Positions 3,266 to 29,940 of a DNA stretch of 36,363 bases are shown in pieces (the first letter of the stretch is position 1; each line of letters starts with the position of its first letter). Origin of the DNA: Desulfobacteraceae bacterium (GTDB taxonomy: Bacteria > Desulfobacterota > Desulfobacteria > Desulfobacterales > JAABTS01). Both the position numbers and the translations under genes were made by a program. The notes under the pieces were generated by a model that had not been told where the DNA came from, did no database searches, and saw nothing but the letters and a program-made list of their open reading frames with translations. Location: the NCBI GenBank assembly GCA_011389735.1, contig JAABTS010000045.1, forward strand, positions 1 to 36,363, read 5' to 3'.

Positions 3266-5422
3266 TTAAAACAAAATTCCAAAAAGGAAAGCCGTTCCGG
3301 ACAGCAGGACGACGGTGTCCGCAGCGCCCACAAACGGGATCAGGATAAGAGCGCCGGCAACCGATCCGATGCCGCCTCCTAGAGCATCCGCCGCATATAT
3401 CGACGACACTGATAAAGCCGGTTCTTTTTTGAAAATGAAGGTAACGTATGCGAAAACGCCGGCTACAAGAAATCCGTTTATGAACAGGAATCCGGAGACG
3501 AGGGCCAGCGATCCGGACAAATCCATCGCCATGAACATGAAAAACAAAGCGTTGAGAAAACCGAAAGCGAAAAACAGCAGCCGGCTGACGTGCTTGACGC
3601 CGGTTTTCCCCATTTTTAGGCGGAATTCCATATATTCGAAAACCGATATCGATCCTGCTGCGAGCCCCGCCATGAACATCATGAGCAAGACGCCGATATT
3701 TTGGAACAAGACGCCGCAATTGATTTCGTAGTCGAGGATCAGCACCGATTCCATGATCATCCCGGTGCAGGCGGCGGCCAATATTTGAAGCAGTCCCGGG
3801 ATTTCAGGGTTTCGCCGCCCAATGAATCGGCCTGCAATTCCTATCGCCAGGCAAACAATAACGGCGGCGGCTCCGGTCAAGAAAGCGGAAGGCGCCTTGA
3901 TCCGATCGTCGAATCCAATGAATTTAGATACAAAATGCATCATGGCGTATCGATAGGCGGCCGGAGACGTGTCTGAATTGGGATCTACGCCGGCGGATTG
4001 CAGATTGTCCTGAACTGCGGCGAACCGGTCGTTTGTGTAAGCATAGCGGATATAGGCGGGCGGAATGGATCCGGCGGCTATTCCCCGGCTTATAAATCGT
4101 GAAATCAACCGTTTCGGTTCTCGAATCAGAGCGCTTTCGGACGCCATAAAAATATCGGTTTCGCCCGGAATCACGATGACATCGGAAAAAATGGAATTTA
4201 CGGCGCTGTAAACTGCGGCGTTTCGTTTGAGCAATGCAGGCGTCCATAGATTTTCGGACGACGGCAATTGAAAAACGAGGATGCCGTTAGAAGCCAGACG
4301 GGAGCGGCAAAGATCGAAAAACTCAATCGTGTAAAACCGGTTCGAACGTCCGGAATTCGGAGGAGGAGCGGCCAGAAAGATGATATCGTACTCGTCCGCG
4401 CTTTCAAGAAAAGTCCTCGGATCGGCGCATTCGATATTCACCTGCGGCGAATAGGGCTCCGGTCCGAAATGAGACGGAGCAACACTTCTAATCGTATCGA
4501 TCAGCATCCGGTTGACTTCGACATAATCGACAATAAGCGGATCATGTTTTCGGACTTCCCTGACAACGCCCGATTCGCCGGCGCCGCATATGAGAATGGA
4601 TTCAGGACGTTCATGCTGTACGGCGGTCATGTGAACGAATTTTTCGGACGCCGCGCTTTGTGAATCTAACCGTAAAGCTCCGTTATCAAATATTATCACC
4701 TGATTTTCCCGTTTGACCACGGTAAGCCGGCCGTAAGGCGAATCTTTAGATAGTATCAGATCGGGATGGTTCCATGCCGTCATCCAGTGATCGATTCGGG
4801 ATGAAAAAACCAGGACGATCATTATCAAGAACAGCGGGATTAAAGCCGGATACCTGATTCGGGATTCGGCGCCGGAATGGAGCGCCCCAAAGCTCATTCC
4901 GGCGGCTACGGCCGAACAGACCACGGCAATTGAAAAATTGCCGATTTGAAGTCCAAGCAGTATGGTGGACAGCAATCCGCCCGCGATTCCGCCGGTGCTT
5001 TCGATCGTATACGCCCATGCAAGAGAACCGCCCCGCCCGCAATACTGTTTCGCGGTCCACTGAAACAGGAGACCGTAGGAAAAACCGGTGGGAAAAAGGA
5101 TGATCAAAAGAGCGAAGATTTGTTTCAGGATCGGAAGATACGTCCCCGTGACGCCTCCCAATGTGAAATGTATCGACCGTGCGGCGGCGATCTCGAGCGG
5201 AATGATCAGCCCTGCGATTAAAAACAACAGAGCGATCGAGGTTCGGGACGGCGTGAAACTACGCCGTCCCCAATATGCGCCGGCGGCGGTGCAGGCCATC
5301 CATCCGCCAATGGAAAGAATATATGTCAGTTCCTCGCCGTAAAAGGCGACATTCAATTCTCTGAGCACCGCCACCTGGCCAAGAATGGAGGTCAGGCCGA
5401 CAATAAAAAGTTGGAAAGGCAT
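3266..5422 (-). CDS. Membrane-embedded spermidine/spermine synthase-like protein
   Basis: A 718-residue protein with three parts: an N-terminal block of hydrophobic helices (about residues 1-190), a central soluble domain of the spermidine-synthase/methyltransferase fold (about 220-480), and a C-terminal block of further membrane helices (about 500-718). The SAM-type nucleotide motif is ILICGAGESG near residue 274, followed by VDYVEVNRMLID. The usual GGGDGG aspartate position holds Glu, and the gate-keeping loop is poorly conserved, so aminopropyl transfer is not assured. It is the third gene of an operon after the radical SAM and Memo-AMMECR1 genes, and this company suggests a shared envelope-associated function of unknown substrate. 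Its start codon sits directly beside an inserted mobile element, whose terminal AAGGA now lies about nine bases upstream of the ATG. Confidence 0.85.
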   Translation of the reverse strand: MPFQLFIVGLTSILGQVAVLRELNVAFYGEELTYILSIGGWMACTAAGAYWGRRSFTPSRTSIALLFLIAGLIIPLEIAAARSIHFTLGGVTGTYLPILKQIFALLIILFPTGFSYGLLFQWTAKQYCGRGGSLAWAYTIESTGGIAGGLLSTILLGLQIGNFSIAVVCSAVAAGMSFGALHSGAESRIRYPALIPLFLIMIVLVFSSRIDHWMTAWNHPDLILSKDSPYGRLTVVKRENQVIIFDNGALRLDSQSAASEKFVHMTAVQHERPESILICGAGESGVVREVRKHDPLIVDYVEVNRMLIDTIRSVAPSHFGPEPYSPQVNIECADPRTFLESADEYDIIFLAAPPPNSGRSNRFYTIEFFDLCRSRLASNGILVFQLPSSENLWTPALLKRNAAVYSAVNSIFSDVIVIPGETDIFMASESALIREPKRLISRFISRGIAAGSIPPAYIRYAYTNDRFAAVQDNLQSAGVDPNSDTSPAAYRYAMMHFVSKFIGFDDRIKAPSAFLTGAAAVIVCLAIGIAGRFIGRRNPEIPGLLQILAAACTGMIMESVLILDYEINCGVLFQNIGVLLMMFMAGLAAGSISVFEYMEFRLKMGKTGVKHVSRLLFFAFGFLNALFFMFMAMDLSGSLALVSGFLFINGFLVAGVFAYVTFIFKKEPALSVSSIYAADALGGGIGSVAGALILIPFVGAADTVVLLSGTAFLFGILF

Positions 5423-5427
5423 TGATC

Positions 5428-5583
5428 GGCATCCTTCATCTGTCAGTTTTCACTTTGAAATCGGGATCGCTATCGGGATCGGGATCGCTATCGCTATCGA
5501 GAGCGAATTGTTTCGATCCCGATAGCGATCCCGATCCCGACTTGGAAAGTGTCAACCACTTTCCTGGGTTTATGAAGGATGCC
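5428..5583 (-). mobile_element. 156-bp MITE-like element with 9-bp target duplication and expanded hexamer core
   Basis: The unit is bounded by perfect 12-bp inverted repeats GGCATCCTTCAT (5428-5439) and ATGAAGGATGCC (5572-5583), and flanked by identical GCATTGATC at 5419-5427 and 5584-5592. This is a clear target-site duplication, with the match extending three more bases by chance. Relative to the copy at 3137-3230 it carries a longer core of GATCGG, GCTATC and related hexamers around an AACAATTCGCTCTCG centre shared with the copy near 29860. It has no coding capacity. The duplicated target contains the ATG of the downstream minus-strand gene, and the element's TTGACA-containing hairpin points toward that gene. 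Confidence 0.85.
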
Positions 5584-5604
5584 GCATTGATCGGCGGATA
5601 GGTC

Positions 5605-7131
5605 TTATTGAAAATCGGATTCACTGAACACGATGGCCTGAAAAATGTAAAATCGCATGCCATTTTTCCAGCTATCGGAACTTAACCCCGCTTTTCGGCT
5701 CAGACGAGACAGCATTTCGGACCGGTTCCAGCCCTGCTCCACCGCCACCTGCGGCAGAAAAACGGCGGACCGGCCGTTTTTTTTGATGACCGTCCCGTCA
5801 ATCCCGATTCTGATTTCCTCATATCCATCGACTTCGCATATAGGCGTCAGCACCGATATTTCAATTTCGATTTCGTCCAGTTCTTCCGGAGCCAGGGGAC
5901 TGAAACGGCGGTCGTTAAACGCCGCCTGAACCGCCATTTTTCCCACTACCAGACATAGAGGCGTATCTTCCGCCATATGGCCGATACAACCTCTTAATTC
6001 ATGACCTTGTTTGAGCGTCACAAACGCGCCCTGACGATTATACAGCTTCGGAGCGAACCCTCTGGCCAGAGGGGCGGTTTGAGTGGTCGCCATTTGTTCG
6101 ATCGTTTTTCGCGCAAACGCCAGCAGAGCCTTTTTATCATTATCGGTCAATTCAGTTTTTCCTTTTGCATCAGCCACTTCATAGGGATTGAATTGGAAAC
6201 CGGGACACTGCGATAATTTGAAGAAGGCCGCGGCGCCGTACCCGACAACCCGGGATGAATCGCCGATTACCGTGTCTCCGGAATTGGCGTAGCTGACAAT
6301 CTTTGCGCAATTCGCGCCGAGCGCTTTGGCGGCGGTTACGGCCGTCATGATCGGTCCCGCTCCGCAGGCCGCTGTGGAAAGCCCGTGTACGCCGCCGACC
6401 GGCTTTTTGAGCGCTCCGGATATGGCTTCGATATCCATTTCGCTGACAGCGGCAAGAGTGGCGCGATCAACCTTGTATGCGTCCTTTGTATCCGGATAAT
6501 GAGACAGATCGGAACTGGCGACGATCAAAACGTTCCGTGATTTCACGACATCGGCAAGAATCGAACCGAATCTGGAGCATCGGTCACGATCAGCGTTTCC
6601 GATCACAACCGGGAGAATTTTTGTATTCGGGAAAAGGGTCTGGATAAAGGGGATCTGCACTTCAATGGAGTGTTCCCGTTGGTGAAGGCTGTTTTCAAAT
6701 TCAATGAAATCCGCGGATTTTACCAGGATTTCCGCCAGATCAGTATCGATGTCCGCGATTCCCAGAGGCGTTTTAAAACCTGCGCCGTCGTAAACCGCTA
6801 TCTTGTCATATCCGCCGGTGGTGTGGTTTGCGCCCAGAATCACCGCCTGATCATATTTGTGGCCCGCCGCCTGATTGAATGCGTCCGCCGCGATCTGTCC
6901 CGAATAAACATATCCGGCGTGGGGAGCGATGAGCGCAACCGGACGCTCTCCGCCGCCCGTCTTTGCGTTTTCCAGCATGGCGGTGATTCCCTCTTTCAGA
7001 ACATGGGGATTTTTGGCGTAAAACCGGCCCGCAACCGCAGGTTGCCGTATTGTATTCGCGCAGGAGATCGATAAAAACGCGGAAACGCCGATCACCGCCA
7101 GAACTATGGTTATTATGCCCTTATTTTTCAT
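5605..7131 (-). CDS. Exported AmmeMemoRadiSam system protein B-A fusion (Memo domain + AMMECR1 domain)
   Basis: A 508-residue protein from the ATG at 7131, chosen because GAGGAG lies just upstream; an earlier in-frame ATG at 7143 overlaps that site. Residues about 3-22 form a hydrophobic signal segment followed by Cys24, so it is secreted or possibly a lipoprotein (the lipobox is poor). The Memo-like domain (about 29-300) shows QPAVAGRFY, the APHAGYVYSG histidine, HSIEVQIPF and SSDLSHY, residues that line the metal or active site in the family. The AMMECR1 domain (about 315-505) shows the invariant LRGCIGHM near residue 378. Memo and AMMECR1 proteins are usually separate and accompanied by a radical SAM enzyme; here they are fused and follow it by 15 bases. 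The biochemical reaction is unknown. Confidence 0.9.
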   Translation of the reverse strand: MKNKGIITIVLAVIGVSAFLSISCANTIRQPAVAGRFYAKNPHVLKEGITAMLENAKTGGGERPVALIAPHAGYVYSGQIAADAFNQAAGHKYDQAVILGANHTTGGYDKIAVYDGAGFKTPLGIADIDTDLAEILVKSADFIEFENSLHQREHSIEVQIPFIQTLFPNTKILPVVIGNADRDRCSRFGSILADVVKSRNVLIVASSDLSHYPDTKDAYKVDRATLAAVSEMDIEAISGALKKPVGGVHGLSTAACGAGPIMTAVTAAKALGANCAKIVSYANSGDTVIGDSSRVVGYGAAAFFKLSQCPGFQFNPYEVADAKGKTELTDNDKKALLAFARKTIEQMATTQTAPLARGFAPKLYNRQGAFVTLKQGHELRGCIGHMAEDTPLCLVVGKMAVQAAFNDRRFSPLAPEELDEIEIEISVLTPICEVDGYEEIRIGIDGTVIKKNGRSAVFLPQVAVEQGWNRSEMLSRLSRKAGLSSDSWKNGMRFYIFQAIVFSESDFQ

Positions 7132-7146
7132 GTCGCTCCTCATCTT

Positions 7147-8406: not shown

Positions 8407-8840
8407 GAATAACTCTCACGGAATGGTTTGATAGTTTTCCGGAAATCAAATTTCACTGCGTTGTCGGCCTGTAATATCCGAATAACATTATTCCAGGCCC
8501 GCCTTATCGCGAATTTTGATTTTTAAAAATCATAATATACGATCTTCCCGAGATTTTTCAAGGATGAAACAATCAATCTGAGCGGGTTTGTAACCCGCGT
8601 TGGGATTGGTTCTAACTTCGGCCATTTTCATTTATCGGTATCAGTATCGCTATCGCTATCGCTATCGGGATCGGGATCGGGATCGGGATCGAAATCGGAA
8701 TCGAAATTGAATCCTTCGATCCCGATTTGGATGCTTCGATTGGCCGAAGATAGAACCAGGCCCACCCGCGTTTCCTACTCGTTGTCAACGGGGATTGCAA
8801 ATCCCCTGGGAGCGTCAGGAGGTTTTCGCTCCGCCGCTAA
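8407..8840. other. Intergenic region made of nested repeats
   Basis: No gene is apparent. It contains a family-1 repeat (8430-8470), a small hairpin GCGGGTTTGTAACCCGC (8582-8598), a hexamer-core element (8608-8757) and a second hairpin GGGGATTGCAAATCCCC (8790-8806). The two hairpins occur side by side, without the element between them, at 18911-18971. Confidence 0.6.
8608..8757. mobile_element. Hexamer-core element with GGTTCTAACTTCGGCCA ends
   Basis: A 150-bp unit bounded by GGTTCTAACTTCGGCCA (8608-8624) and the near-inverse TGGCCGAAGATAGAACC (8741-8757). The interior is an array of GCTATC, GATCGG and GAATCG-type hexamers. It resembles the core of the 5428 element but has different ends. 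It separates two hairpins that are neighbours elsewhere, which suggests insertion. Isolated copies of the end sequence occur near 16867 and 19779. No target duplication was seen. Confidence 0.55.
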
Positions 8841-18396: not shown

Positions 18397-18469
18397 GCAC
18401 CCGTATTTCTTGACCCTGTATGTGGATCGCATTTTCCGAACCTCCGCGGAAAAATAAAATGCGACATTC

Positions 18470-18625
18470 ATCAGGCAGGTCTTCTGACTCCCGGATCATC
18501 CGTCTGACCGCGCCTTCCCGTGGGTGTTGAACCACAGTGGCGTTTTGCGGACAGCCTCACCGGTTACAGCGGGCGGGACCGTTCCCGATTTGCACGGGAT
18601 TCCCTATTAAGCGTCGTGCGCCTGA
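18470..18625 (-). promoter_or_regulatory. Cobalamin (B12) riboswitch
   Basis: Read on the minus strand, the segment has the cobalamin aptamer elements in order: AATAGGGAA; GTGCAAATCGGGAACGGTCC; CCGCTGTAACCGGTGAGG; the GCCACTG core around 18532-18538; and the B12 box AGTCAGAAGACCTGCCT around 18474-18490. A promoter lies just upstream and an intrinsic terminator downstream, so control is most likely by transcription attenuation. A further hairpin at about 18427-18464 (CGCATTTT with AAAATGCG) may take part in switching. Confidence 0.93.
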
Positions 18626-18632
18626 TAAATTC

Positions 18633-18661
18633 TTTTTACGCCCGGGGAGCGATGCTGTCAA
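18633..18661 (-). promoter_or_regulatory. Sigma-70 type promoter for the B12 riboswitch transcript
   Basis: On the minus strand a perfect -35 TTGACA (18656-18661) is followed after 17 bases by TAAAAA (18633-18638) as -10. The predicted start is near 18625, at the 5' edge of the aptamer. Confidence 0.65.
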
Positions 18662-29782: not shown

Positions 29783-29940
29783 GGCATCGCTCATAAACCC
29801 AGGAAAGTGATTGACACTTTCCAGGTCGGGATCGGGATCGGGATCGCTATCGGGATCGAAACAATTCGCTCTCGATAGCGATAGCGATAGCGATAGAGAT
29901 AGCGATCACGATAGCGATCAAGATTTCCGTAAGGATATGG
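29783..29940 (+). mobile_element. Third copy of the GGCATCC-type element, right end decayed, upstream of the protease gene
   Basis: It starts GGCATCGCTCAT and continues with the AAACCCAGGAAAGTG-N5-CACTTTCC hairpin, then an expanded array of GATCGG, GCTATC and GATAGC hexamers around the same AACAATTCGCTCTCG centre as the 5428 copy. The right terminal repeat is not recognisable, so the end coordinate is approximate. Its TTGACA hairpin reads toward the downstream operon, so it may contribute promoter sequence. Confidence 0.7.

Follow-up and report, generated by a model that had tools for sequence, protein, structure and literature searches.

The 156-bp element that separates a Memo/AMMECR1 gene from a spermidine-synthase-like gene in a Desulfobacteraceae bacterium is a MITE of which the genome has well over a hundred copies. 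Its insertion across the start codon of the downstream gene is real, recent and a chance event, which left the encoded protein unchanged and altered the signals for its translation start. A first-pass annotation of this DNA had the structure right and over-read the effect. The features are listed below by their positions in the window, by which we mean the whole stretch of 36,363 nucleotides that was analysed (contig JAABTS010000045.1).

3137–3230, no strand assigned: second MITE copy, 94 bp, 35 nt beyond the stop codon of gene 3266–5422
3266–5422, minus strand: downstream spermidine-synthase-like gene, 718 aa, intact, N-terminus matching relatives
5419–5427, no strand assigned: target duplication copy 1, GCATTGATC, containing the ATG in use (complement of 5420–5422)
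5428–5583, no strand assigned: MITE of subfamily A, 156 bp, with end 1 on the left and end 2 on the right
5428–5439, plus strand: left terminal inverted repeat (TIR) GGCATCCTTCAT, 12 bp, perfect
5432–5436, minus strand: SD-like AAGGA inside the TIR, preceding the ATG in use by 9 nt
5440–5456, plus strand: subterminal motif of end 1, CTGTCAGTTTTCACTTT (family consensus AGTTTACACTTT), common to the autonomous element
5458–5543, no strand assigned: core, an inverted array of ATCGNN hexamer units
5542–5563, minus strand: subterminal motif of end 2, GGAAAGTGGTTGACACTTTCC (counterpart in the autonomous element AAAAGTAGTTGACACTTTTT)
5570–5587, minus strand: decoy ORF of 5 codons, ATG CGG CAT CCT TCA TAA, which begins at the duplicated upstream ATG and extends into the element
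5572–5583, minus strand: right TIR ATGAAGGATGCC, reverse complement of GGCATCCTTCAT
5584–5592, no strand assigned: target duplication copy 2, GCATTGATC, containing the duplicated upstream ATG (complement of 5585–5587)
5605–7143, minus strand: upstream Memo + AMMECR1 fusion gene with its stop at 5605
29783–29912, no strand assigned: third MITE copy, decayed, with one recognisable end, 88% over 130 bp

The perfect 12-bp TIRs, as described in the first-pass annotation, become arms of 13 bp when the adjoining C/G is included, and the 9-bp duplication reported on both sides (minus-strand reading GATCAATGC) is likewise present. A GCATTGATCGGC match can be followed over 12 bases across the flanks, but the GGC of its left copy is part of the TIR. 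The element is non-coding and carries no transposase gene. Its hexamer pattern ATCGNN occurs 21 times in the window versus 0.03 times expected, and across the family the copy lengths change in 6-bp steps, as slippage within the arms of the hairpin would produce. RNA folding of the whole element gives a hairpin of -93 kcal/mol (z -9.7), and a search of Rfam gave no match at the 156-bp element.

In the host assembly, a draft of 6.5 Mb in 477 contigs, exact GGCATCCTTCAT is found 119 times in forward and 118 times in reverse orientation (237 in total) and the reversed control pattern not at all. BLAST with the element revealed 91 matching places, some of them being cross-matches between its two arms, and 74 copies with both ends present were extracted from the assembly as the scored set. 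Target duplications (TSDs) of 8 bp with at most one mismatch flank 60 of these 74 copies and TSDs of 9 bp another two, including the copy at 5428–5583, and the remaining 12 have none; shuffling the right flanks among the 74 copies yielded a mean of 1.4 and a maximum of 6 such 8-bp TSDs versus the 60 observed. Both the number of exact TIRs and the TSDs bear out the original description of the element as MITE-like. The family rule is 8 bp, and the 9-bp TSD at 5419–5427/5584–5592 represents either a minority form or 8 bp with one extra base. Copies of the family are 88–264 bp long and fall into three subfamilies with different interiors and common ends, and in intact copies each end has a ATGAAGGATGCC that faces outwards. 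The AT content is 75% in the TSDs versus 63% in the flanks. Nearly all copies are intergenic, with only one of the 74 interrupting an ORF with a length of 150 codons or more, which reflects target preference, selection, or both. As the closest copy (contig C114), which has its own target duplication, differs in one base of 156 (99.4% identity), the insertion at 5428–5583 is recent.

The second MITE copy of the window has no target duplication in its flanks, and together with the copy at 5428–5583 it brackets gene 3266–5422. A composite transposon formed by these two copies was considered and rejected, since the outer flanks mismatch and no duplication accompanies the 3' copy. A further repeat at 8570–8810 of the window combines ATCGNN units with GGGTTTGTAACCCG / GGGGATTGCAAATCCCC palindromes, and similar palindromes are also present within a 264-bp MITE copy (L004). 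A cobalamin riboswitch is located at 18457–18640 on the minus strand (Rfam RF00174, 117 bits).

The three genes encoding the rSAM, Memo/AMMECR1 and spermidine-synthase-like proteins occur in this order in MAGs from several phyla, and in relatives the junction of the second with the third gene varies from an overlap to a spacer of several hundred bases, most being below 110. The TIR is absent from this junction in all relatives examined, the nearest ones available for this comparison showing about 42–48% protein identity, so conservation of the element at this site in distant species, which would have spoken against an insertion, was not seen. As the spermidine-synthase-like protein aligns with its relatives from residue 1, the ATG inside the duplication is the native start, and the gene starts from the inner copy as previously proposed. 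Removal of the element and one duplication leaves the spacer GACCTATCCGCCGATCA of 17 nt as the inferred pre-insertion distance to the Memo-AMMECR1 stop, in agreement with the 17 bases estimated before. In other lineages (L091, L095, L097 and L106) this junction has a longer spacer or repeats of an unrelated kind, and L106 also has a repeat-rich insertion of about 217 bp inside the spermidine-synthase-like gene.

Targeting of start codons by the MITE family was analysed using those element ends, 63 in number, ahead of which a gene starts at a distance of up to 250 nt. The end-to-gene-start distances show a flat distribution, two of the 63 being within 10 nt versus 2.5 expected, and start-codon targeting was therefore rejected. 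Landing on the ATG is chance, the expected tail of many intergenic insertions.

Matching terminal repeats around a transposase gene, which the first-pass annotation had suggested looking for, were found in another genome of the same order but not in the host assembly. In this genome (G114, a single contig of 8,027,777 bp) exact TIR pairs lie 1923 bp apart four times, next to many 307-bp MITE-like copies. The ends of the 1923-bp elements are GGCATCCTTCATTTATCAGTTTACACTTT and GGCATCCTTCATATTAATATAAAAGTAGTTGACACTTT, the element of the window having a matching layout with the common subterminal motif GTT(T/G)ACACTT, and three of the four are surrounded by clear 8-bp repeats (CTCCGAGC, AATTTCTC, TCCGATTC). 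Their product is a 533-aa DDE-like protein and putative transposase. Homologs of it were identified in 11 of 389 sampled genomes of the order, most of them adjoining an exact GGCATCCTTCAT, and at one locus the element is complete, with 1951 bp and the duplication TGATTTTT, its transposase gene being split over two frames. The combined pattern of TIR and subterminal motif is present in 50 of the 389 genomes from many families, namely in 10 of the 11 genomes with a transposase homolog versus 40 of the 378 others (Fisher P 5e-9, uncorrected for shared ancestry). We therefore hold with high confidence that the element is a MITE and the 1923-bp element its parent.

A close homolog of the 533-aa transposase was not found in the host assembly, but as this is a draft of many contigs, several of which end inside a MITE copy, the parent may be missing from the assembly or extinct. 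Other partners in the host were rejected: IS1595 (PF12762), ISL3 and IS256 genes are absent from the assembly, the stretches fetched for two DDE_Tnp_1 genes lack these TIRs, and so does the 3-kb locus of a DUF6399 gene (L216, G000:C333). No relative of the transposase was found in viral contigs.

Conserved acidic positions in the motifs sDEIF, DEGrGL and vECiNS of the transposase alignment suggest that the 533-aa protein is a DDE enzyme. It stays below every Pfam and NCBIfam cut-off, with 12.3 bits against a cut-off of 21 for IS256 (Transposase_mut, PF00872) and 12.9 against 150 for NCBIfam. Weak sub-threshold profile hits concern the catalytic region of IS256 and, in the case of two aligned members, ISL3; the reference protein itself gave no hit to ISL3 (PF01610). 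IS256 and ISL3 families produce TSDs of about 8 bp, as observed here, but when the transposase was compared by hhalign with members of both families in related genomes, the probabilities were 0.6% (IS256) and 0.4% (ISL3). The host DUF6399 (PF19936) protein, in contrast, aligns with a profile of four transposases over most of its length with a probability of 96% (E 1.8e-9), though with about 24% identity, with no PF19936 hit for the transposase itself and with none of these TIRs at the host DUF6399 gene. From these profile comparisons we would call the transposase a member of an IS family unnamed in Pfam/NCBIfam models and distantly related to DUF6399. DUF6399 itself may be a transposase-like family. 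The transposon family of the MITE is apparently undescribed, and a literature search for the TIR sequence, for DUF6399 and for MITEs in Desulfobacterales/Desulfonema revealed nothing relevant.

Among known systems, MITEAba12/ISAba12 (PMC6382973), an example of the classical bacterial MITEs that derive from an identified IS, is similar in being a short non-coding element that shares its TIRs with a transposase-coding element, has a TSD of typical length (9 bp) and AT-rich targets, and effects on neighbouring genes have been proposed for it as well. It differs in its ends and transposase type and in its core, that of our element being an ATCGNN hexamer array of variable length, and its IS is resident in the same strain, whereas the 1923-bp parent was found only in other genomes. 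The Correia/NEMIS elements of Neisseria (PMC2229807) also have TIRs, are about 100–155 bp long and lie near genes, and they are transcribed as a long stem-loop, comparable to the hairpin predicted here. They have TA termini and a 24-bp TIR, however, in contrast to the 12-bp TIR of our element, and RNase III processing, which has been proposed for their transcripts, can be transferred to the MITE only by analogy.

The following model for the origin of the junction is proposed. The MITE is a non-autonomous derivative of an IS type with a 1923-bp parent and its 533-aa DDE-type transposase, which may act in trans, with the 12-bp TIR and subterminal AGTTTACACTT as its recognition sites, and insert copies into AT-rich intergenic targets via a staggered cut of 8 bp, or 9 bp in the present case. 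Here the cut fell on the ATG that begins the final gene in the conserved rSAM – Memo/AMMECR1 – spermidine-synthase-like operon, so that gap repair left an ATG to either side of the element, and gene 3266–5422 still uses its native start codon. Ribosomes leaving the Memo stop would then reach the old ATG copy, which opens the 5-codon dead-end ORF, and the SD of the true ATG would now be the outward TIR end.

The claims that the insertion had rewritten the operon junction and possibly added a ribosome site and promoter sequence hold for the structure and not as a demonstrated gain of signals. AAGGA is indeed present with exactly 9 nt between it and the ATG, close to the spacing given earlier, and its computed anti-SD pairing is -5.5 kcal/mol versus -1.2 for the inferred old leader. 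In the fold of the read-through RNA, calculated without ribosomes and kinetics, it is however paired with the opposite TIR at a probability of 1.0 and thereby predicted to be locked in the stem of the element; in the inferred empty site the start region is also largely paired. Neither a sigma-70-like promoter nor a terminator-like site was found within the element on the minus strand, the strand of the gene, and the added promoter is thus not supported. With the decoy ORF in place and the SD masked inside the hairpin, the spermidine-synthase-like gene appears to be uncoupled from the Memo gene, and its translation probably reduced or conditional. Lower expression would be expected as long as neither processing nor translating ribosomes open the hairpin, and RNase III processing might be one way to free the SD. 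We give about an even chance to the expression of the spermidine-synthase-like gene being lowered or conditional.

The main rival is a neutral outcome, in which the operon transcript continues to serve the gene and neither the hairpin nor the changed leader matters much. The intact coding sequence and the range of junctions tolerated by relatives are in its favour, but a predicted hairpin, a decoy ORF and a changed SD are large alterations for such a tight junction, and we consider it possible though less probable than a lowered or conditional expression. A gain of function, with the TIR as a working ribosome site and perhaps promoter from which the downstream gene is expressed independently and better, would fit the strength and spacing of AAGGA and the outward-facing ATGAAGGATGCC of intact copies. 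It seems unlikely in view of the fully paired SD in the predicted read-through RNA and the minus strand without a promoter-like site, and gene starts are also not enriched near element ends. Finally, the strong hairpin and the intergenic position of nearly all copies could be those of a domesticated intergenic RNA element, serving as processing or terminator hairpin and not being mobile. This reading is highly improbable and largely refuted by the TSDs on 62 of the 74 copies. Also against it are copies that are nearly the same in sequence although their sites are unrelated, the autonomous element that shares these ends, and the missing terminator-like site and Rfam match.

Returning to a lowered or conditional expression as the preferred outcome, it is conceivable, although we regard it as a long shot, that in an uncatalogued IS family, spread over many families of the order, the outward TIR ATGAAGGATGCC brings along an SD of its own, which the opposite TIR masks in read-through RNA. 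Any insertion immediately before a gene would then create a conditional switch of translation, to be opened by RNA processing. In summary, the junction is a clean example of a target duplication over an ATG that keeps the protein intact and replaces the whole leader, and the abundant small repeats of one bacterial order can be tied, very probably, to a transposase type that is unnamed by Pfam/NCBIfam.
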